Assembly (NCBI GenBank): GCA_028710485.1
Contig: JAQTTZ010000003.1
Span: forward strand, 1-64,000
Source of the DNA: Bacteriovorax sp.
Lineage (GTDB): Bacteria; Bdellovibrionota; Bacteriovoracia; Bacteriovoracales; Bacteriovoracaceae
DNA: 64,000 bases
Direction: 5' to 3'
The position numbers and the translations under genes are program-made. Shown in pieces: positions 8,019 through 22,465 of the stretch. The first letter of the stretch is position 1. The number at the start of each line of letters is the position of its first letter. The notes below the pieces were generated by a model. The model saw only the letters and a list, made by a program, of their open reading frames with translations, had not been told where the DNA came from and made no database searches.

Positions 8019-9770
8019 TTACCTAGTGAATTTAGCTGTTGCAACTGTAAATATTCCCCACTGATCAATCTTCATATCCAATTTATTTGCACCATGTTTG
8101 GCAAATAATTGATCTATCTCTAACTGAGTTCTTCTTCTCATAACCCAGTTTACTCCCTCACGGTTGGGAAGAGTATGAGCAATCATTTCTAATTGTGGGT
8201 GCCATGGCTGACCAGTGTAAACAATATAACTTTCTGGATCCAGGATTGAAGTCGCACCAAGCACCGCTTTTAAAACGGTTTCATTACTTGGAAACAATTC
8301 AAAAAGACCAGAGACAATTAAAATATTCGGTTTAAATTCTTGATCTGTGTAAGTTTTTGGATCAAAGGCATCTGCCACCAAAAAATCGGCATTCGTGCAT
8401 CCAATTTGCTTGGCTATTTCACGGGCCTCGTTGATATTGCTATCAGAGTAATCACGCAATAAAACTAATACATCACTCTTTTCATATTTTTTGGCCGTCT
8501 CTAATAAATAGCGTCCGGGTCCAGAACCAATATCCATAATGCGTACTGGTTTGCCTTCTTTGATTAACGAATCAATACAATAATTGAGAGACTCTCTCAT
8601 ATGAACTCTGCGAGCTCTAATTCCCTTCCATCCAACTGCGTTGATATAGAAAAAATCGATAATTTGCCCAATGATTAAGTCACCGCGCGCCTTATTTTTA
8701 TAAACATGGTCGAGAGAAATCCCCGAATCAAATCCATGTTTATAACCGATGCGAATCCCCTCTGATAATTTCCCTAAAGTTTTCATCGAAAGAACTTGAA
8801 TAGCATAATTAATTTTATTAACAAAACTTACGTCACCTGACTGAATCGATTTATATTCATTGAAGGTATAACCTTCATGATCAGCGCGAACCATATCGAC
8901 GGACATCGCTTCTGCGGCAAAACATTTATCAATAAAGCGGTGAATATGGTCCAGGGGAATTTTTTTGTCTTTTTCATACAAGACACCATGATAAAATCCA
9001 TCGAGTACAATATACTCTTTCATCTTTGAGCTTAAACTATTAAAAAACTTCTTTTGAGGTGTATTGCTTACAACCCAATCACTTCCTGCAGAAAAAACAA
9101 TGGCCGGCGTATGAATGGCCCCAGCATCGTTTACCACTCGTTCTGAAGTATCATGAAGTCCAACCAGAATATTGACTGCAATTTGAGGAGTAATCAACTT
9201 ATCATCGTCGTATTTTTTTTGCTCAACAATGTCATGAGTTAAGAATTTAGATTTAACATAACTTGAAATATAGGCCGGATTTTTAACAGCATCTAAGATC
9301 CTACAACCTAAAAGTGCCCCTGGAACATAGAGTTTTATTTCAAACGCCGGTGCGGCCAAGGCCATACCACGAATCTTCGGTGCGTAATCATGAACCCAAG
9401 TGCTGGTGACCACTGCACCAACACTATTGGCGATGATAAAAATATTTTCAATTTTAATTTGATGCTCTTTAGAAATAAAACTAACAAAAGTATCGAGATC
9501 TTTTACGATATGTGAAAATGACGGAGCATAGCCGCGCGGACCTGTTGACTCTCCATGACCTCGTGAATCGTATCCAAAGGCCCAAAATTCAGGCTCCTCA
9601 ACCCCATTGATTAAATCAATAAGCCTTCCTGAGTGTTCATGTCCTCGGTGGATAACGATCAAAGCTTTTTTATCACCGGTTGATTCTTTTTCTGGTGCCC
9701 ATGAACGATATACTAATTTTTCACCATCGAAGGTAGAAAAAGTAGATTTTTTTTCTTCTCTTTTATTCAT
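8019..9770 (-). CDS. Bifunctional alpha/beta hydrolase + class I methyltransferase (YnbC-like)
   Basis: N-terminal half: YDSRGHGES, IANSVGAV nucleophile elbow, FYHGV His; C-terminal half: IMDIGSGPGRYLLETA SAM motif. 583 aa, same domain order as E. coli YnbC from memory. Confidence 0.8.
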   Translation of the reverse strand: MNKREEKKSTFSTFDGEKLVYRSWAPEKESTGDKKALIVIHRGHEHSGRLIDLINGVEEPEFWAFGYDSRGHGESTGPRGYAPSFSHIVKDLDTFVSFISKEHQIKIENIFIIANSVGAVVTSTWVHDYAPKIRGMALAAPAFEIKLYVPGALLGCRILDAVKNPAYISSYVKSKFLTHDIVEQKKYDDDKLITPQIAVNILVGLHDTSERVVNDAGAIHTPAIVFSAGSDWVVSNTPQKKFFNSLSSKMKEYIVLDGFYHGVLYEKDKKIPLDHIHRFIDKCFAAEAMSVDMVRADHEGYTFNEYKSIQSGDVSFVNKINYAIQVLSMKTLGKLSEGIRIGYKHGFDSGISLDHVYKNKARGDLIIGQIIDFFYINAVGWKGIRARRVHMRESLNYCIDSLIKEGKPVRIMDIGSGPGRYLLETAKKYEKSDVLVLLRDYSDSNINEAREIAKQIGCTNADFLVADAFDPKTYTDQEFKPNILIVSGLFELFPSNETVLKAVLGATSILDPESYIVYTGQPWHPQLEMIAHTLPNREGVNWVMRRRTQLEIDQLFAKHGANKLDMKIDQWGIFTVATAKFTR

Positions 9771-11060: not shown

Positions 11061-12146
11061 TTAGGGTTCATAGCGATAAATACAAATATCATACATCTGA
11101 ACTTTCTCAGACTCGATTAAGTCCTTATGTTCCTTGGTAATATCAACAAATCCCGCTAAATTACATTTAGCTTTTCTCAGATAGTATCGGTTGACAATAA
11201 TGGCCCCAGGATTAAGTCCTGGACGTATATTTTGCATAAAATTCTCTTCAAGATCGCCTCTAAAATAAGAAGGAACATCGCTGAGCGAGAGAAAGTCGTA
11301 AGACTTGACGCCACTTTTTAAATGAGTGATTAAATCCTCATTGAGATAATGGGTCTTGGTTTTAGAGCTAGAAATTCTTTGGTGAGTTTCTAAACTCGCT
11401 TCAACTGGGACACCGGCCAGGGAATTAATTTTTCCATAAAAGCATAAATGCAGGAAAAAACTTTTCTGAGCGATATCATGAGTGAACAGGCGATCAAAGG
11501 CATTATAATAATAATCAAAATGCGATTCAGAAGAATTTTTTTCAATAAAATCTCCCTTGTATAAAAGGGCATTGAAAAGAGCTTTATTTCCCAATAAAAA
11601 AATAACGGCCATCCATCTTTTATGAGGAAATTCATTCTGATAATATTTTTTCTGAGCATTCAAATCATCAAATCGCAAAATACGATCAAAATCATGCCCA
11701 AGAAGCGCGCGATTAATTTTGGCAAGAACTTGAAAAGTCCGCTCCCACTTTCCTAGGTATAATAGTGAAGAATATTGAATTTCATCAAAGATGTTTTGAA
11801 AATAGAAGCGAACTTCTGAGGCAAGTTCTAGCTTTAAAAAAATATTTTTTCGGGCATCACAAAAATTATTATCCGAATATGGAAAATATCCCCAAAAACA
11901 CAAAAAATCCTGATGGGATAATTGTTTGTAGGTTGCCTCCCTTAACATCGCCAAATGGATCTGCTCTTTAGACAAATCAGAAAGACTCAAGTCTTGGGCC
12001 TCACCACATAATGGAAGCGCTCTTCCTCCACTGCCACAGACACTAAAAATAGATTTTGGTTTGAACTTACTAACGAGTTCAATCTCTACGCTAGTATCCT
12101 CATTTCCTAAAGTATAATTTAAACCAGTAAAATATTTTTGTGCCAT
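11061..12146 (-). CDS. DUF3419 / BtaA-like protein (S-adenosylmethionine:diacylglycerol 3-amino-3-carboxypropyl transferase-like)
   Basis: IFSVCGSGGRALPLCGEAQDLSLSDLSKEQIHLAMLREATYKQLSHQDFLCFWG and YDFLSLSDVPSYF...PGLNPGAIIVNR resemble the BtaA/DUF3419 pattern. Confidence 0.65.
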   Translation of the reverse strand: MAQKYFTGLNYTLGNEDTSVEIELVSKFKPKSIFSVCGSGGRALPLCGEAQDLSLSDLSKEQIHLAMLREATYKQLSHQDFLCFWGYFPYSDNNFCDARKNIFLKLELASEVRFYFQNIFDEIQYSSLLYLGKWERTFQVLAKINRALLGHDFDRILRFDDLNAQKKYYQNEFPHKRWMAVIFLLGNKALFNALLYKGDFIEKNSSESHFDYYYNAFDRLFTHDIAQKSFFLHLCFYGKINSLAGVPVEASLETHQRISSSKTKTHYLNEDLITHLKSGVKSYDFLSLSDVPSYFRGDLEENFMQNIRPGLNPGAIIVNRYYLRKAKCNLAGFVDITKEHKDLIESEKVQMYDICIYRYEP

Positions 12147-14230
12147 TACTTTTTCTCACTTAATTTTTTGAGGGCGTGTTCCTGACATAAACTGAATTCT
12201 TCATCCGTGATAAAACCATTATGTCCCATGATATGTGATAGTCGGACACCATGCTCGTTGGCCAATTTGTCGATTTCAATAACTTTTTCATAATTAATAT
12301 TGCGAGAAAGAGTGAACGATTCAAATTTTCCTTCCATCGCTAAAAGTGCTGTTTCTGCTAAACAGGCATAGACAATATTTCCTTCTAATCCTAAATCTAT
12401 ATCAATATGTAAGTCCTTTCCAGGTAATTGAACTTCTCCGCTGGCGATGACTAAAACATCAGGTCTTTTGGTTGCATCTTTTTCACTTATATCAAATGGT
12501 CTTGAGACATCGCAAATCACACAACCGGGTTTAACTTTCATAATATCTAAAACCGTTTTGCCTTGACCGGAAGTGGTGGTGATAATCAAGTCACATTCAA
12601 AAGAATGAGAGTCTGCATCCGTAGATATTTGAACTTTAGCTTCCGGATTAATTTTTAATATTTCTTCTTTTAACTCAATTAATTTGTAAGCTCTCGGAGC
12701 AACAATAATAATATCTACCCAAGAGAAACTCAAAATTTTCGCTGAAACGGCACCGATGCTACCAGTGGCACCAACAACCATAACCTTGCCTTTGAAAAGA
12801 TTATTTTCTTTTTTTACAAACCCCAGTTTATCAACTGCTACTTTTGCTGCCCAAAGAGTAGAAGCAGCAGATAAAGAATTTCCTGTCGTTACAGGAATTG
12901 GACTCAAGCGATCAATCGTAACACCTGCGTCGCCTACAATTTTAGTATAGGCCCCAAGTCCCATAATCTTTGATCCTTTGGCATTAGCTTTTTCACAAAG
13001 TTTAAGTATTTTTTTGTAAATAACATCGGGTTCGGCCTCCATGAGTTTTTTAGGAGTTTCCGTAACAGTATAAATTAATCCATGAACCCTTCGTCCATTT
13101 TTCTCACTGACGATTCCATCAATTTCTCCATAATAAAAACCAGGGGAATAAGAAAATACTTCCTCAGTCAATTTTTCGATGGGTTTTGAATACTTCCTGA
13201 TAAATTTCAAATAAGGATGTTTAAAGAGAAACGCCGCACTGAGTGGGTGAATTACAAAAGAGAAATTTATCACTTCATCAGTATTTTCATTGAACACTTT
13301 AATTTCTGGAACAAGCTTAATATCATCCACTAATTTAATGACGTCATCTTCTTTTACAACAACCCCTACTCCTTTTTTTAATTGAGCGATACCTTCAAGG
13401 ATAGAGTAATTAATTTTTGAGTATTTTGATAATTGTGGCAGACAAATAAGTGCGTCTTTTAGACCTACTTCCCGAAGTTTTTGTTCTAATTGAGGTGTGA
13501 CAATATCAATAATAAGTGATTTCCCTTTTAAGTGAGTTAGATTTAAAAAATTTATATTAGCTTCATTTCCAACCAAAACATCACAAGATAAAAATTCATC
13601 CAAGGCCCGGTTAATTTTTCTAGTCGTCATTGAAAAAGAAGGGACATTACTCTTTTTAATTTTCAATCTTCTTAAAACGGGAGCAATCGTTTTTAGATAC
13701 TGACCAAGGCTTTTGCTGCTGTGAAGATTAAAAGGCATTTTAGTTAAAAAATAAGGATCGGCCATCACGAGCTCATTACCTAAGTCTTCTAAGACTTCCA
13801 CAAAACTTTGTTGCAAGGCCGCGGAGTAAAATCCAATTTTTTTCTTTGATAAAAATTGTTGATTTTTAAGATAGAACATCCTTAATGCATACGGAATATA
13901 TACATCCTTAATGATCTGTCCATCAACTAAAGGTGTTTCTTTGGCCGCAGCTCTAATTCGGTATGTCTCAGGATGAAGAAAAAAACCTTTTTTAAATTTA
14001 ATTTTTTGAGGAAGTCCTGAAATACAGATCACGTCGCAAAGGCCATCGTATTTTTTAATAATGCTCTCAGTAAGTTCAATATCAAAGTTGGTTGAGTATT
14101 GAGTGATACGATAAGTTTCACCAAAGAATTCAACTTCTTCATCAAAATTATATTGATCTTGGGCAAAGGCCAAAGAAAGGATATGTTTCATACACTCTAC
14201 ACTTTTTAAATTATTAGAGAGTTTTTCCAA
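12146..14230 (-). CDS. Acyl-ACP/acyl-CoA reductase (cyanobacterial AAR)-like protein with ~330-aa N-terminal region of unknown function
   Basis: C-terminal half GLGAYTKIVGD...TTGNSLSAAS...VMVVGATGSIGAVSAKIL...VYACLAETALLAMEGKFE resembles cyanobacterial AAR, including the Cys in the FACFAEA-type motif. Confidence 0.7.
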   Translation of the reverse strand: MEKLSNNLKSVECMKHILSLAFAQDQYNFDEEVEFFGETYRITQYSTNFDIELTESIIKKYDGLCDVICISGLPQKIKFKKGFFLHPETYRIRAAAKETPLVDGQIIKDVYIPYALRMFYLKNQQFLSKKKIGFYSAALQQSFVEVLEDLGNELVMADPYFLTKMPFNLHSSKSLGQYLKTIAPVLRRLKIKKSNVPSFSMTTRKINRALDEFLSCDVLVGNEANINFLNLTHLKGKSLIIDIVTPQLEQKLREVGLKDALICLPQLSKYSKINYSILEGIAQLKKGVGVVVKEDDVIKLVDDIKLVPEIKVFNENTDEVINFSFVIHPLSAAFLFKHPYLKFIRKYSKPIEKLTEEVFSYSPGFYYGEIDGIVSEKNGRRVHGLIYTVTETPKKLMEAEPDVIYKKILKLCEKANAKGSKIMGLGAYTKIVGDAGVTIDRLSPIPVTTGNSLSAASTLWAAKVAVDKLGFVKKENNLFKGKVMVVGATGSIGAVSAKILSFSWVDIIIVAPRAYKLIELKEEILKINPEAKVQISTDADSHSFECDLIITTTSGQGKTVLDIMKVKPGCVICDVSRPFDISEKDATKRPDVLVIASGEVQLPGKDLHIDIDLGLEGNIVYACLAETALLAMEGKFESFTLSRNINYEKVIEIDKLANEHGVRLSHIMGHNGFITDEEFSLCQEHALKKLSEKK

Positions 14231-15218
14231 AGAGAATACTTTTAAAAGTACTGTAAGTACTTTCTTGTATCTCCGGTAACTCCTCTATTGTACGAGTCTT
14301 ATCGTATGAGAGTTTTGAAAACATGAATGGAACAAGTTCCCGGGGAATACCCAACAGTTTTAGAAGGGAATCGTGGATTGGATTTCTTAAAACGGGAAAA
14401 TACAGAGTTTTTACACCGAAGGCCTTATTTAAATCTATCAAAAACTCTTTGACCGTGGGAATTTCATTGCTTACCAGATGATAAGTTTTCAATTCAGGAG
14501 CACCTGTATCTCGAGAGATTAATAAAGAAATATACCGAGCACAATGGTCAACCGGAATTAAAGGGATTTTGGTGCGAGGATTAAAGCTTAATGGAATAAA
14601 CGGAATAGACTTTAAAAGGGTCGAGTATTTTTCCATGGCATGAATAAAGTAATATGGCCCATCTGTCTTATCCATTTTACCGGTCAGAGAATCCCCTATT
14701 ATGATTCCAGGACGAATAATTCTTACTGCTCCCATGGAGTGAAGTTCACGAACCATAATTTCTGCTAGATATTTAGTTTCAGAGTAAAAATCATCGAAGT
14801 GTTTTCTAAGAGGAAGATGATCTTCTTCCAGGAAAAAAGACTGGTCATCTCCCACTGCAATAGTAGAGATATAGTAAAAAGCTTTTAGTTTTTTCATTTT
14901 TTTTACAAAATGAATTGTATTTTGAGTTCCTACAACATTTTGTAAATAACAATCCGAGTGGCAGGCCTTTAGGTCATACAACGCTGCTGCATGAAGAACA
15001 AAGTCGCATTCTGCAAGCAACTGATCGCGCATTTTTTGATCTTCTATAATTTCTAATTGAGTAATGTCCCCTTTTACAAGTTGAACATTTGCAAGATCAC
15101 TAAGGCCTTGAAAAGAAGAATTCCGTGAGAGAATATAAATGCTTTCAAATTTAGAACTCAACTCCCTAACTAGGTATTGTCCCAAAAATCCTGTAGCACC
15201 TGTTATAAGAATTTTCAT
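14214..15218 (-). CDS. Extended SDR / NAD-dependent epimerase-reductase family protein
   Basis: MKILITGATGFLGQYLVREL Rossmann motif, YSETKYLAE (YxxxK) active site. Confidence 0.85.
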   Translation of the reverse strand: MKILITGATGFLGQYLVRELSSKFESIYILSRNSSFQGLSDLANVQLVKGDITQLEIIEDQKMRDQLLAECDFVLHAAALYDLKACHSDCYLQNVVGTQNTIHFVKKMKKLKAFYYISTIAVGDDQSFFLEEDHLPLRKHFDDFYSETKYLAEIMVRELHSMGAVRIIRPGIIIGDSLTGKMDKTDGPYYFIHAMEKYSTLLKSIPFIPLSFNPRTKIPLIPVDHCARYISLLISRDTGAPELKTYHLVSNEIPTVKEFLIDLNKAFGVKTLYFPVLRNPIHDSLLKLLGIPRELVPFMFSKLSYDKTRTIEELPEIQESTYSTFKSILFGKTL

Positions 15219-15233
15219 AAGAATAACTATACA

Positions 15234-16190
15234 TCACATTAAAGTAACTTGGGTACACAGATTAATTTCTTTTTGATCCTTAGGAGAAAAGACTGAAAGG
15301 AACTGGTGATGACATTTAATATCCCAGCTAGTACTTTGATTTAAAATTTCTCCATCACCAAAAAATGAAATTTTGTCATCGTCAATTAAATCTATTTTAA
15401 CGGCGGTAGTTTCAAAGCTAATTAGATTTTTATCATTTAAAGGATAATTTCCACTTAAAATTTTTAAAATGCATTGAATAAGCTCCAAGCGATTTTGGTG
15501 CTTAAAAACAGTGATATTAACTGTCCCGTCCTGGTGGTTCGTGTTTGGAGCAACGTTAAAATCGCCAGCAAGGGCCGGCTGATTATTGACCAAAAGAAGT
15601 GGAGATAAAAGTGTTTCTGAAAATTCAGCTGACTGAACTTTAAATTTATAGCTTTTGATTTCTCGATTAAGTAATTTTTTTGCCAAAAAAAGCGAATAAA
15701 CACTTTTACCTGACAATTTCATAAAACTTTTAAATTGTGGCAAACTGGTGCGCAGTTCATTGATCTCATTGGCCACTTCAGACGCAAATCCAATGCCACC
15801 ATTAGTGGCCATAAATTTTCCATTAATACTGATCAGATCTATTTTCTTTTTAACGTTTTGGCGAATAGTCTGAGTAATGCGTTTTATATTTGAACTTGAC
15901 CCCAAGACTCTGGCAAAGTCATTGGCAGTTCCACCAGGGACGACTAATAGGCCTATTTCAGTTCCAGCGAGTCTTTGAATGATAGTATTGACCGTTCCAT
16001 CTCCACCAACAGATAAGATAGCATCGACGTTATTAACTACATCCAATTCAAGTTTCTCATAAAGTTCATCAAGATCTTTTGGAGTTTGATATTCAATATT
16101 ACTTCTAAAAAGAGCATTGTTGATTTGCCCTTGCCAGTCCTGTGCCCCATTCGAGGCCCTCTGATTCAAATAGACAGAGATATTTTGCAT
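15234..16190 (-). CDS. Diacylglycerol/lipid kinase family protein
   Basis: AILSVGGDGTVNTIIQRL and VPGGTANDFARVLG motifs (DagK catalytic domain). Confidence 0.92.
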   Translation of the reverse strand: MQNISVYLNQRASNGAQDWQGQINNALFRSNIEYQTPKDLDELYEKLELDVVNNVDAILSVGGDGTVNTIIQRLAGTEIGLLVVPGGTANDFARVLGSSSNIKRITQTIRQNVKKKIDLISINGKFMATNGGIGFASEVANEINELRTSLPQFKSFMKLSGKSVYSLFLAKKLLNREIKSYKFKVQSAEFSETLLSPLLLVNNQPALAGDFNVAPNTNHQDGTVNITVFKHQNRLELIQCILKILSGNYPLNDKNLISFETTAVKIDLIDDDKISFFGDGEILNQSTSWDIKCHHQFLSVFSPKDQKEINLCTQVTLM

Positions 16191-16301: not shown

Positions 16302-17327
16302 TTAAGCTATGGGAAGTTCGAGAATTTCATAAAGATGGGTCCATAAATGCTTCATCTTGCGCCCGTAAGATTCGCTTTGTGCGCCTTCTTTCACCATTGC
16401 AGCTACCATTTTATGAATCCCCATATCTGCAGCTTTTTTTAGAGACAGGTACATCGAACCATTGGATAGACCACTTCCTCGATAATTTCTATCGATACCA
16501 ATTGTTTTCACGACACAATAATCATGTTCGACAAAATTAATAAAATATCCAATTCTCTCACCAGTTGAAGATTTAATAAAAAGGGAAAAGGTGAAATCGT
16601 CTTTTTTTGATTGAGCGGCATAAAGTGTTCGAAATGTTTCAAAATCAATTGGTGTCGCAAGATAATTATCGTCAAAAATATTAAGTGAAAGGCGATGAAG
16701 ATCTTTCATGTCTTCCAGGTTAAGCTCCTTTGGAAAAAATTCAAAAGTAAATCCAAGCCCCAAAGCTTTCTCATAATCACTTTTAGAAAGGTTGATAATA
16801 TTGTCGAGTTCTTCATAACCTTTGGAAGAGAATAATTGATTTGTAGAAAAACCAGCTTCTTTTAGTAGCTGGCAATACTCAATCGGCCTGTCAGGCTCAA
16901 AAGAGAACATTGGGCCTCCATCCACTGAACTCAAAAGGCGATATGGAAGCCATGTGGAAAAGTTAATAGGTCCGTAAATTTTTGAAGCCCCTTGTGATTG
17001 GCACCAGGAATTAATAATTTTTTTGAATTCACTTAAAATACTTTTAATTTTAAAATTTTTATAATCAAAATCCAATAGTCCGAAATAGGCCAGGTCAGGA
17101 AAGGGAGTCAGGCAAATCATTGAGCGCAATACAACAACACCACTTTCTTTGATTAGAAAAAAATCATGGGTCAAATGATGTAATTTAAAATAAAGGGCCT
17201 CTAATTCAAAGGGTAGTTTTTTTACTTTATTATTATCAGCGTAAAGTTTTTTCGGAAAATCAATAAATTCTAAAATAAAATCATTTTTATTTTCAGCTGT
17301 ACTATAGAATTCAATTTGTAATGACAT
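16302..17327 (-). CDS. GNAT-like acyltransferase, unknown substrate
   Basis: C-terminal VVKTIGIDRNYRGSGLSNGSMYLSLKKAADMGIHKMVAAMVKEGAQS resembles a GNAT acetyl-CoA site. Confidence 0.6.
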   Translation of the reverse strand: MSLQIEFYSTAENKNDFILEFIDFPKKLYADNNKVKKLPFELEALYFKLHHLTHDFFLIKESGVVVLRSMICLTPFPDLAYFGLLDFDYKNFKIKSILSEFKKIINSWCQSQGASKIYGPINFSTWLPYRLLSSVDGGPMFSFEPDRPIEYCQLLKEAGFSTNQLFSSKGYEELDNIINLSKSDYEKALGLGFTFEFFPKELNLEDMKDLHRLSLNIFDDNYLATPIDFETFRTLYAAQSKKDDFTFSLFIKSSTGERIGYFINFVEHDYCVVKTIGIDRNYRGSGLSNGSMYLSLKKAADMGIHKMVAAMVKEGAQSESYGRKMKHLWTHLYEILELPIA

Positions 17328-18174
17328 ATAAAATTCCTGAATAAAGAAATACTAATAGATTAAGCGTCGCCAGTGATTCAACAATTTTAAATTTTATCAT
17401 TTTTCCACTTAATGCCATCAAGCTGGCAAAAAGCAAAATAATTGGAATATAGAAAAAATATTGATTGTAATTATCCTGGAATAAAAAACGAATAGCACAA
17501 AGATGAAGAACTAAAAGAGTTGTAACAATTTTAATGACACCATCTATTCCATATACCGAAAGGTAAGTTTTTAAAACGGGGTGCGCGGCAGGGTCAAGCT
17601 TTCGGCAAACTTCATAACTAAAAAAAGCAAAAAGAACAGAAAGGGAATACACCAGATCAATTCTGGTAAAGATCAAGGGTTCTAAATTTCTATAAACAGA
17701 GATACAGTACAGGCAAAGAGTAACTAGGATTAACTGATGAGTGACAGCATACAAGAGCGGTCTTGCATTAATCCATTTGGCCACATAAAATTCTTTATAC
17801 ATCAACCATAAATGAACAATCACCAAAGAATAGAGATAGAAAGAATTTACATACCCCGCAAGCAAAAGAACAAAATCAAAACCGATGAGAGTAAACAAAC
17901 CAATTGTGATTCCCATTTTAAACTCAGGCAAAGGAATCAATCCTCTAGGTAATGGTCTTTTGGGATGGGCAAGCACATCTTTATCATAATCTTTATATTC
18001 ATCCATCATTCGTAAAAGCAGAAAAAAAAGAAAAAAACCTATAAAGGCCAGGCATAAAGATAAATAATTTCGATTATTAGCAAGAGCATAACCTGAAGTT
18101 GCAGGACCCATCGTAATGAGCAAGTAACTGGCAATTGGAGTTCGCTCTTTAAAAAATATCATCCAGTTTCGCAT
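17311..18174 (-). CDS. UbiA-type prenyltransferase family membrane protein
   Basis: LLLRMMDEYKDYDKDVLAHPKRPLPRGLI matches the first Asp-rich motif; many TM segments; 17-bp overlap with the GNAT gene. Confidence 0.8.
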   Translation of the reverse strand: MRNWMIFFKERTPIASYLLITMGPATSGYALANNRNYLSLCLAFIGFFLFFLLLRMMDEYKDYDKDVLAHPKRPLPRGLIPLPEFKMGITIGLFTLIGFDFVLLLAGYVNSFYLYSLVIVHLWLMYKEFYVAKWINARPLLYAVTHQLILVTLCLYCISVYRNLEPLIFTRIDLVYSLSVLFAFFSYEVCRKLDPAAHPVLKTYLSVYGIDGVIKIVTTLLVLHLCAIRFLFQDNYNQYFFYIPIILLFASLMALSGKMIKFKIVESLATLNLLVFLYSGILYVITN

Positions 18175-18180
18175 TTTATT

Positions 18181-19590
18181 TCATCCTAATTTTAATTTTG
18201 CCAAGATGGCCTTGCGGTCAATTCTAGCTCGGTGCCTGATATCTTTAATAATTTTTGAATCAATAAAACTATCAATTTGTGGAAACTTTTGTTTTAAGAT
18301 TATCTGAGTAGATTTTAAATTTTCTCCAATCAACATTATTTGATTGTTTGAATTTCGATGAATGAACGCCAGATCATTTCCCAATATATTATACAGATTT
18401 TGTTCCATGAAAAAATCATCCATACTCATTTGAGATCTGCCGCTGTACCACCAGTCCTGATCAGAATCGATTTGAATTCGATCGCCCATAAAATGCCAAA
18501 CGCGATTTTGCTCATCTTTTCTTTTGTTTAATTCATTTTCTTTTTGGTTGTTTAAATAAAAAGGGCAGACATGAGGACCCGTTACCCACATCCCATCGCT
18601 TTTATTTTCAAAGGAAATTTCTTCAATCGGTTTACCCAGGTATAGAGTATGATAAAAATTTCGTTCTTTCGATTTGGTAACTGCAGGCCTTGCATCTATA
18701 GTGCAAACAGGTTCAACCTCACTAGAGCCATAGACTTGTGAAACCTGCACATCGGGGTAAGTTTTAAAAACATCTTCAAACAACTTGCAAGGTGTCAGCG
18801 CCCCACCGATATGAATGTCTTTTATATTATGTAATTTTGTCTCTTGTAGAATATTTTTTATAAAGGCGGGGCCACAAGTAAGAGTTTCAATATTATAAGT
18901 TTTTGAAGCCTGCTCCAGCCAGTTGAAATTTTTTTTCGACCATTTTGCTGGAAAAAAAACAGTTGGTCTTCCTTGAGCTAAATTAAGAAGTGCCCAGTTG
19001 GCAAAAATACAAAGGTCACTTCCTGCATACTGATCAAAATGAAGAGATTTTTTTAAAACAGAAAATTGTCTTAAAAGATAGCCCTGTTCTCTGACAACTC
19101 CCTTGGGTGTTCCGCTGGTTCCAGAAGTAAAGGTGATAACTCCTGGAGTTTTTTCGTCAACTGCTTCACAAATTAATTCATTTTTTTGTCCACTAAGCAA
19201 AGAGCTTGGCCTTATCCAATGAGGAATACTTCGAATCTCCGGGACTCGCAGCCCCCATATATTCCCGACTAAAGAGCTCACAAAGAATTTAGGACTTACG
19301 CTCTTGATGACCTCAGAAATTTTTTTAATGGGCATCCATGGCTCCACCAGAATGATGGTTCCACCAAGTCCCATAACGGCAATGACCGTTGAATAAAGAT
19401 CTATCGAGACATCTATGGCAATCAAGACTGAATCGCCACTCTTAAAATTTTTATCTAAAAGATAACTTTGAACTCTCATGACTCGCTCACGCAAGTCAGA
19501 AAAAGAAAAGGCAGTTCCATAAGGAGAAACAAAGGCCAATTGGTCTTTTATCTCAAGAGATTTTTGAGCAAATAAATCTATACAATTCAT
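18181..19590 (-). CDS. AMP-dependent synthetase/ligase (acyl-adenylate forming)
   Basis: GVITFTSGTSGTPKGVVREQGYL (P-loop A3), SQVYGSSEVEP, MGDRIQID. Confidence 0.93.
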   Translation of the reverse strand: MNCIDLFAQKSLEIKDQLAFVSPYGTAFSFSDLRERVMRVQSYLLDKNFKSGDSVLIAIDVSIDLYSTVIAVMGLGGTIILVEPWMPIKKISEVIKSVSPKFFVSSLVGNIWGLRVPEIRSIPHWIRPSSLLSGQKNELICEAVDEKTPGVITFTSGTSGTPKGVVREQGYLLRQFSVLKKSLHFDQYAGSDLCIFANWALLNLAQGRPTVFFPAKWSKKNFNWLEQASKTYNIETLTCGPAFIKNILQETKLHNIKDIHIGGALTPCKLFEDVFKTYPDVQVSQVYGSSEVEPVCTIDARPAVTKSKERNFYHTLYLGKPIEEISFENKSDGMWVTGPHVCPFYLNNQKENELNKRKDEQNRVWHFMGDRIQIDSDQDWWYSGRSQMSMDDFFMEQNLYNILGNDLAFIHRNSNNQIMLIGENLKSTQIILKQKFPQIDSFIDSKIIKDIRHRARIDRKAILAKLKLG

Positions 19591-19765
19591 TTCTTTAGTT
19601 TAATGAAAAAGTACTAAATTTGGAAAAATAAAATGATAAGAGTAAATAATTCGGCCAAATAATTCATTTTAAGTTAAAAGCATTTTTCTCAACTAAATAT
19701 ATCTATCAAAAATTATTATAACTTGCCGACTAGGCTTATAAAATAACGAATTAAGGAATATTTGC

Positions 19766-22465
19766 ATGAACATAAAGCGACTTTTAACGGTTACATCAAA
19801 CAGCACATACCATTTTGCCAGAAAAGAAAGTGGCGGAAAAGGATTCAATCTTTTTCTTTTAAATGCCAATGGTGTAAATGTTCCACCCTTTGTAACGCTC
19901 ACTCCGCAATTTTTTGAAAAATTTAAAGAAGCAACAAAGATTAATGATTATATTGATAACATTTTTGTTGATCAACATCTCTCTCTTTTAGACGTATCAG
20001 AAAAAATTAGAACCAAAATTGTTGAAACTCCATTTACTCCTGAATTAGAAAAACAACTGGCGCTCATTTATAAAGAACTTGATAAGAGTCTTATATCAGT
20101 TCGTTCATCTGCTCACGACGAAGACAGTGCTCTTCACTCTTTTGCCGGACAGCTTAGCAGTTATCTTTATATTTCTGATTTCCAAAATACACTGAAAGCA
20201 GTAAGAGAGTGCTGGGCCTCGGCCTATTCAGAGCGCTCTCTTCACTATCGAACAATTAATAAATTAGAATTAAAAAATATTCGAGTCTCAGTTATTTGGC
20301 AGGAAATGATTGACCCCGATATCAGTGGAGTGTTTTTTACCTGTAATCCAGTTACCGGAAATACTGATCAGGTTTTTATCAATTCTGTATACGGCGTTGG
20401 TGAAGGATTAGTTTCAGGGTTATTAGACGCAGACACATTTGTTATCTCTAAAATTGATGGACTGGTGCTGGAAAAAACAATTGTTGAAAAAACCAAGAAA
20501 CTAATTCGCGATACAGCAAAACAGCAATGCCTGGAAGTTGAAGTTGAAAATACCTTACAAAATACTGAGTCAATTAGCGCCAATGACATAAAGAGACTTC
20601 ACGCCATAGCTGCTAAAATTGAACTTTTTTATGGTCGACCTCAAGACGTTGAATGGGCCATCAAAGACAGTGAACTCTATATTTTACAATCTAGACCTGT
20701 CACGACGGCCACTGAAAATAACCGGGGAATACTTTATATTTGGGACAATTCCAATATTGTAGAAAGTTATGGCGGATTAACAATGCCACTAACTTTTGGA
20801 TTTGCTCATTATGTTTATCATCAGGTCTATATTCAATTTTGTGAAGTTCTTTTAGTTCCTCAAAAAAGCATTAAAGAAATGGATTCATATCTAAATAATA
20901 TGCTTGGTCTGTTTTACGGGCGTGTTTATTATAATTTATTAAACTGGTACAAACTCATTTCAATTCTCCCTGGTTATAAAAATAACCGCTCATTCATGGA
21001 AACCATGATGGGAACAAATGAGGCGATACATGATGAAGTGGCAGAAAGAGTAAAACCTTCTGATTTTCAAAATGGAGCTGGTGCTTTTATTCGCCATTGT
21101 ATCACGGGAATGAAGTTTCTTTATTTTCATTATAATATTCAAAATGTGGTAGATGATTTTCAAAAAGAATTCCATGTCGTTTATAATAAATTTAGAAAAA
21201 TAGACTATTCTAGATTAAGTGCTGATAAAACCTATGAGCACTTTCAAAAGTTAGAAGCTGAAATCCTAAGAAAATGGCATGCACCAATTATTAACGATAC
21301 TCTTTGTATGGTTCATTACGGTACTTTTAAAAAACTTACCAGCAAATGGCTCTCTCACCTGGGCGATTCATTTTATAATGATCTTCTGGCCGGAAATGGA
21401 AATCTTGAATCTGCAGAACCGACAAAACGTTTAATTGTTCTCTCGGGAATTGTTTCTAAAAATGAAGAATTAAAAAGTCTTATCTTAACAACTCCCAACG
21501 AGCATTGCCTTGAAGCTCTTAAGCAAAATAACCAAAATGAATTTTATGACATGGTTCTCGACTATATCGATCGGTATGGTTTTCGCTGCATGAGTGAAAT
21601 GAAATTAGAACAAAAAGATTTACATCAGGAGCCTGGTCTATTTTTTGTATTTTTAAAAAACTTAATTAATTGTGGTCAAACGGATCTCCATGAATATGAA
21701 CGACGTGAAAAAGATATTAGAAATAATGCTGAAGCGTTATTAGAAAAAAATATTTCAGGTATTAAGAAAGTAATCTATAAATGGTCGCTTAAACATGCTC
21801 GTAAGGCCGTTATGAACCGTGAAAACACTCGTTTTTGCCGTACCAGAATTTATGGTGTCGTTCGATCAATGTTCTATGCCATTGGGGAAGATTTCACTAA
21901 GTCCAATATCATCGATAAAAAAGAAGATATTTTTTATCTCTCTTTTGAGGAATTAAAAGGGGCCTTTGAAGGAACAAACACCATTCAAAACCTTCGCGCA
22001 GTTATTGAAGTCAGAAGAAAAGAATACGAAGGTTATAAAGATGTTGAACCAGCACCGCGCTTTACGACGAGAGGTCCAGTGTACTGGCATAATATTCACA
22101 CCGAAAAAGAAGAAGTTGTAGTCTTCGATGAATCAAGCCTTCTTCCCAATCAAATGAAAGGAACACCTTGCTCGCCAGGTGAAATTACTGGAATTGTAAA
22201 AGTGATCATGGGCCCAGAAGACGATATGGTTTTAAATGGTGAAATATTAGTCACAGATCGAACCGATCCTGGTTGGATTCCATTATATCCATCTGTGAGT
22301 GCCTTATTAGTCGAACGTGGAGGTCTGCTCTCTCACTCTGCAATCGTAGCTCGCGAAATGGGACTTCCTACCATCGTTGGGATTAAGGGTCTGACTAAAA
22401 AATTAAAATCAGGAATGAAAGTAAAAATGAACGGTGAAACAGGGCTTATCGAAATTCTCGAATAA
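19766..22465 (+). CDS. PEP synthase / rifampin-phosphotransferase-like phosphotransferase (ATP-grasp + PEP-utilising His domain)
   Basis: N-terminal SVRSSAHDEDSALHSFAGQ...WAIKDSELYILQSRPVTT; C-terminal ERGGLLSHSAIVAREMGLPTIVG His-domain motif; long central region. Confidence 0.88.
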   Translation: MNIKRLLTVTSNSTYHFARKESGGKGFNLFLLNANGVNVPPFVTLTPQFFEKFKEATKINDYIDNIFVDQHLSLLDVSEKIRTKIVETPFTPELEKQLALIYKELDKSLISVRSSAHDEDSALHSFAGQLSSYLYISDFQNTLKAVRECWASAYSERSLHYRTINKLELKNIRVSVIWQEMIDPDISGVFFTCNPVTGNTDQVFINSVYGVGEGLVSGLLDADTFVISKIDGLVLEKTIVEKTKKLIRDTAKQQCLEVEVENTLQNTESISANDIKRLHAIAAKIELFYGRPQDVEWAIKDSELYILQSRPVTTATENNRGILYIWDNSNIVESYGGLTMPLTFGFAHYVYHQVYIQFCEVLLVPQKSIKEMDSYLNNMLGLFYGRVYYNLLNWYKLISILPGYKNNRSFMETMMGTNEAIHDEVAERVKPSDFQNGAGAFIRHCITGMKFLYFHYNIQNVVDDFQKEFHVVYNKFRKIDYSRLSADKTYEHFQKLEAEILRKWHAPIINDTLCMVHYGTFKKLTSKWLSHLGDSFYNDLLAGNGNLESAEPTKRLIVLSGIVSKNEELKSLILTTPNEHCLEALKQNNQNEFYDMVLDYIDRYGFRCMSEMKLEQKDLHQEPGLFFVFLKNLINCGQTDLHEYERREKDIRNNAEALLEKNISGIKKVIYKWSLKHARKAVMNRENTRFCRTRIYGVVRSMFYAIGEDFTKSNIIDKKEDIFYLSFEELKGAFEGTNTIQNLRAVIEVRRKEYEGYKDVEPAPRFTTRGPVYWHNIHTEKEEVVVFDESSLLPNQMKGTPCSPGEITGIVKVIMGPEDDMVLNGEILVTDRTDPGWIPLYPSVSALLVERGGLLSHSAIVAREMGLPTIVGIKGLTKKLKSGMKVKMNGETGLIEILE

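Follow-up and report, generated by a model that had tools for sequence, protein, structure and literature searches.

The window analysed here, 64,000 nucleotides of a 4.3-Mb draft genome of Bacteriovorax sp., carries on its minus strand a gene for a two-half protein that we call AAR2, preceded by genes for a lipid kinase and an extended SDR and followed by a gene for a DUF3419 protein. The features are given below, with counts taken over 34 homologous loci with usable flanks. Residue numbers of AAR2 count from the ATG at 14191 (681-aa form).

12146..14191, minus strand: AAR2, two-half protein of 681 aa (start set from the orthologues)
13265..14191, minus strand: N-terminal half of AAR2, residues 1-309, probably an AAR-like domain that has degenerated and has none of the active-site residues (profile similarity, model)
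12146..13264, minus strand: C-terminal half of AAR2, residues 310-681, a predicted AAR/PigE-type thioester reductase domain (profiles, structure model, residues)
12878..12889, minus strand: TTGN motif, residues 435-438 (alignment)
12752..12772, minus strand: GATGSIG dinucleotide-recognition loop, residues 474-480 (aligned with AAR 162-168)
12362..12364, minus strand: predicted catalytic cysteine C610, the equivalent of AAR C294 (57 of 57 relatives)
14214..15218, minus strand: extended SDR (NAD_binding_4/thioester-reductase like), found immediately upstream in the same orientation in all 34 loci
15234..16190, minus strand: diacylglycerol-kinase-like lipid kinase (DAGK_cat), before the SDR (33 of 34 loci)
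11061..12146, minus strand: DUF3419 (BtaA-like) protein (28 of 34 loci; the next gene downstream in 19)
16302..17327, minus strand: GNAT-like protein of the accessory block (weak match, below the family cut-off; 9 of 34 loci)
17311..18174, minus strand: UbiA-like prenyltransferase of the accessory block (NCBIfam prenyltransferase, 1.8e-11; 22 of 34 loci)
18181..19590, minus strand: AMP-binding ligase of the accessory block (21 of 34 loci)
19766..22465, plus strand: PEP-synthase-like dikinase (PPDK_N + PEP-utilizers), divergent neighbour (25 of 34 loci)

The earlier note had described 12146-14230 as one gene for a 694-aa protein. The 694-codon open frame does exist and belongs to the minus strand (stops are frequent when the plus strand is read), but the length has to be corrected: the alternative TTG start at 14230, which overlaps the 3' end of the upstream SDR gene, is probably wrong, because in the alignment the orthologues have their start at ATG 14191. 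At the other end of the gene, the stop codon of AAR2 overlaps the start codon of the DUF3419 gene (TAATG).

Residues 310-681 are predicted to form a complete AAR-type thioester reductase domain. In NCBIfam, the PigE model NF053554 matches AAR2 at 2.4e-45, covering 323-687 in the numbering of the 694-aa frame. The AAR model TIGR04058 matches at 2.3e-13, with 50.2 bits against a curated cut-off of 449.7, and the score on the PigE model is likewise far under the curated cut-off. The PigE profile is covered at positions 2-358 of 837 only, and a Pfam search of AAR2 gave no aminotransferase match. Searching the PDB with AAR2 retrieves the PigE structure 4ppm at 5.6e-24, like the PigE profile match well outside what chance would give, and a profile of 19 C-terminal halves finds 4ppm at 9.1e-36 and the AAR structure 6jzq at 1.7e-15. 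By fold, the AlphaFold model of this half (pLDDT 85.6) has only AAR structures as its best Foldseek matches, with E 4.7e-18 and a TM-score by target of 0.79; next comes a thioester reductase domain from the carmabin pathway. The homology to AAR, PigE and TamH spans the whole domain and includes the catalytic Cys, a GxxGxxG-type loop and TGN. The profile and structure-model searches that had been proposed for this half thus came out in favour of an AAR-type reductase, and the AAR-like character claimed for it holds in sequence, model, Cys and NADPH loop, with the reservation that by profile the domain is nearer to PigE than to AAR. Since AAR2 falls so far below the AAR curated cut-off, we assign it to the wider AAR/PigE/TamH reductase superfamily, as a separate clade that is neither an AAR nor a PigE orthologue. 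The equivalog cut-off of TIGR04058 was passed by none of 144 genomes of Bdellovibrionota; a search with the family model NF053554 was swamped by ordinary aminotransferases.

The residues of the domain were checked one by one in 57 relatives drawn from several families of Bdellovibrionota. TTGN, GATGSIG and YACLAETALLAMEG are all found in AAR2. As the earlier note had supposed, its Cys stands at the AAR active-site position: C610 aligns with C294, the column in which PDB 6jzz, the C294S mutant of AAR, has Ser, and it is identical in all 57 relatives. The equivalents of AAR His7 and Thr128 are likewise invariant, as are G, A, T, G, I and G of the GATGxIG loop, with S or A at the variable place. 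AAR Y247, important in cyanobacteria, is replaced by an invariant Arg. The NADPH phosphate in AAR is held by R193 and R314 (PMC7089970); the first position is K/R in 56 of the 57 relatives and the second is R/K in all of them, while that of AAR R189 is Pro here, with a neighbouring Arg in 50 of 57. The aldehyde-forming role of the PigE reductase domain, which has the same Cys, is supported by complementation and in vitro work (PMC8341465), and the AAR-type domain of TamH, again with the same Cys, has been shown to convert acyl-ACP into aldehyde (PMC9594044). Taken together with the computed fold and the computed conservation of the catalytic residues, these precedents make the C-terminal half very probably an active, aldehyde-forming acyl-thioester reductase; this activity, and its cofactor, we infer. 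The hydride donor would be NAD(P)H, probably NADPH, although TamH prefers NADH (PMC9594044).

The N-terminal half, of roughly 309 residues, gave no match in Pfam, NCBIfam or PDB searches. Its AlphaFold model is a confident alpha/beta domain (pLDDT 86.8, pTM 0.85), for which Foldseek retrieves nothing but generic folds, Rossmann-like or periplasmic-binding-like, at low TM-scores. The checks suggested for this region therefore agree with the claim that it belongs to no known family; what has to be revised is its extent, given before as about 330 aa, and we think that it is probably a degenerate AAR-like copy and not an unrelated domain. Across the 57 relatives, it has a single near-invariant position (D145) against 62 in the C-terminal half. 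Bdellovibrio proteins share about 16-17% identity with the N-terminal half and 47-50% with the C-terminal one. Equivalents of TTGN, GATGxIG and the catalytic Cys are missing from it.

A common register was first suspected when the sequences of the two halves were read next to each other, and the likeness came out by degrees in hhalign. Narrow profiles gave nothing, a broader AAR-like profile aligned N84-233 with C121-256 at best (P 0.005), and the addition of more sequences gave two colinear segments in register, N84-118/C121-154 with 22.4 bits and N198-294/C219-320 with 27.5 bits (P 0.0066 for the latter). None of 300 block shuffles of the N-terminal half attained the best or the summed score, and seven neighbour families score 13-22, the SDR family, itself Rossmann, giving 17.3. 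We therefore have an in-register similarity, significant although low in score, to set against the rival view that the N-terminal half is an unrelated alpha/beta domain of its own family, serving for example in acyl-carrier or membrane binding. That view can point to the absence of AAR from the best 50 Foldseek matches, to an hhalign probability of only about 6%, and to the order of secondary structures, which is alike by eye in the two halves but does not discriminate (7 of 60 shuffles reach the observed score in a string permutation test). It can also point to five stand-alone N-half proteins of 313-329 aa, which occur alongside the full gene in their genomes and show that this half can be kept by itself; such proteins lie at L050:8887-9843, L051:11592-12545 and L104:8980-9918. 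The shuffles, and the much lower similarity to the SDR family, speak against it, and we consider an unrelated domain unlikely. The reading that we prefer, and judge likely, is that the N-terminal half is an old internal duplicate of the AAR-like domain that has lost the active site and kept a structural or binding role; its lack of conserved residues is a computed result.

AAR2 is spread across Bdellovibrionota, including Bdellovibrio, and is no local oddity. A profile of the N-terminal half, searched within this phylum, matches 108 of 369 genomes, among them complete genomes from another family, each a single contig of 3.8 Mb, and one of these is probably B. bacteriovorus HD100. The HD100 locus tags Bd3185-Bd3190 were tried as the AAR2 cassette and rejected, as they are unrelated neighbours of ftsA/ftsZ. 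Nearly all AAR-like proteins in Bdellovibrionota are either the two-half form or TamH-like fusions, and a plasmid search gave aminotransferase-type fusions only, matching the C-terminal half alone. The genome of the window itself holds such a fusion (C28:5557-8169, minus strand), an 870-aa protein that joins an AAR-type thioester reductase to a class III aminotransferase, and a genome of the same genus has a similar 884-aa protein (L053). This hints at a fatty-amine pathway, in a genome whose own estimate carries 8% contamination.

The lipid operon recognised in the earlier note is borne out by the counts for the kinase, the SDR and the DUF3419 protein. The accessory genes beside the cassette (window 16302-22465 and the same side in L031-L049) come in two types of block that are swapped between loci. 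The first combines a formyltransferase-like protein, an abhydrolase/AMP-ligase, a UbiA and a PEP-synthase-like protein; the second has an AMP-ligase, a UbiA, a PEP-synthase-like protein 38-40% identical to that of the window, a GNAT and a P450. In a locus of the Bdellovibrio family (L087:4022-13139), the genes around the cassette code for an ABC ATPase, a MacB/FtsX permease and a LolA_like protein (PF17131), and there is also an unassigned ORF of 355 aa resembling an outer-membrane barrel. These flanking genes are a possible lipid export module, and the ABC/FtsX permease and the LolA-like protein suggest delivery of the lipid to the outer membrane. Elsewhere in the window (8019-9770, minus strand) there is a 583-aa fusion of Hydrolase_4, of the serine-aminopeptidase type, with Methyltransf_20.

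The conserved grouping of kinase, SDR and reductase throughout Bdellovibrionota points to a lipid pathway. On balance, we think it probable that an active AAR-like C-terminal half, joined to a non-catalytic duplicate, hands its product over to the SDR as part of a hitherto undescribed lipid pathway in this phylum. In such a pathway, a fatty acyl group would be moved from ACP or CoA onto C610, and hydride from NAD(P)H, probably NADPH, would release it as an aldehyde; both steps are supported at the level of residues. The N-terminal half would assist in cis, whether structurally, by binding or by channelling. The aldehyde may then pass to the co-translated SDR, most likely to be converted to the alcohol or else to undergo a carbonyl step of another kind; further on, the kinase and the BtaA-like protein would act on later lipid intermediates. 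The basis of these last steps is the constancy of the gene order, a computed result, from which we infer both the transfer of the aldehyde to the SDR and the final product. A wider proposal is more tentative: an internal duplication of an acyl-thioester reductase, in an ancestor shared by most Bdellovibrionota, might have given a pseudoenzyme half for holding or channelling the acyl or aldehyde intermediate, which with the kinase and the SDR would constitute an undescribed aldehyde-based pathway to envelope lipids.

A different substrate has to be considered as well. AAR2 could act like PigE on a special acyl thioester, for example a branched or polyketide-like one, in a natural-product pathway with the AMP-ligase, the UbiA-like and the PEP-synthase-like proteins, and not on the usual fatty acyl chains. 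PigE is, by profile, the closest characterised relative, the neighbouring PEP-synthase-like protein gives scores with the prodiginine ligases RedH and PigC too, the AMP-ligase/UbiA/PEP-synthase block is near the gene in 21-25 of the 34 loci, and the same genome holds the TamH-like fusion elsewhere. The block is, however, absent or of another type in many loci, whereas kinase, SDR and reductase are constant, and the reductase has as its steady companions a lipid kinase and a protein of lipid-modifying type (DUF3419). Moreover, the PEP-synthase-like protein fits best the ordinary PEP-synthase model (1036 bits, above the cut-off), and bipyrrole genes were not recognised in the operon. We regard this route as rather improbable. 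Very improbable is the transfer of the aldehyde to the nearby P450 that the earlier note had speculated about, or to an alkane-forming oxygenase: the window does contain a P450 gene (2757-4091), and a few of the homologous loci border on such a gene, but P450 genes occur in only 5 of 34, the one in the window stands outside the operon, 7-8 kb from its last gene with opposite-strand genes between, and the ADO family PF11266, which the note had rightly reported missing, is absent from the own genome and 56 relatives, so that both a P450 as conserved aldehyde consumer and the alkane route via ADO are rejected. The plasmalogen route via CarF/TMEM189 was also rejected, as PF10520 is not in the own genome and is found in 2 of 57 genomes.

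Known AAR-type reductases are either free-standing enzymes of alkane pathways or fused to aminotransferases, and AAR2 can be compared with both. With AAR (TIGR04058; PDB 6jzq, 6jzu, 6jzy and 6jzz) it shares the fold, the GATGxIG loop, the catalytic Cys, H7 and, it seems, most of the basic pocket for the NADPH phosphate. However, AAR stands alone with about 340 aa, half the length of AAR2, it is partnered by ADO, which is absent here, and its Y247 is Arg in AAR2. The reductase domain of PigE (NF053554, PDB 4ppm) is homologous from the first strand to the end, with the same catalytic Cys (Cys296 in PigE) and His, but PigE has a C-terminal PLP aminotransferase that AAR2 lacks, and AAR2 instead carries the fused, presumably non-catalytic N-terminal half, with no prodigiosin genes recognised. 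PtTamH, of the tambjamine YP1 pathway, resembles AAR2 in having the AAR-like reductase as the C-terminal part of a two-part protein, although its N-terminal part is a transaminase. Among predatory bacteria, myxobacterial ElbD and MXAN_1675 use FAR1-type, SDR-family reductase domains for ether lipids, and they are similar in that acyl reduction goes along with an NAD-dependent epimerase-type SDR and lipid genes (PMC9131029). The elb operon was nevertheless rejected as a match because its reductase is of the other type, FAR1 instead of the AAR-type Cys reductase of AAR2 (PMC9131029); moreover, the genome of AAR2 is without the vinyl-ether desaturase family PF10520.

If the N-terminal half is indeed a dead copy of the reductase itself, AAR2 would represent a new, phylum-wide architecture for AAR-type reductases, and a natural test of the role of pseudoenzyme halves in aldehyde channelling. 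Bdellovibrio is genetically tractable, and the conservation of kinase, SDR and reductase in predators that include it makes this a putative lipid pathway open to direct genetic study.
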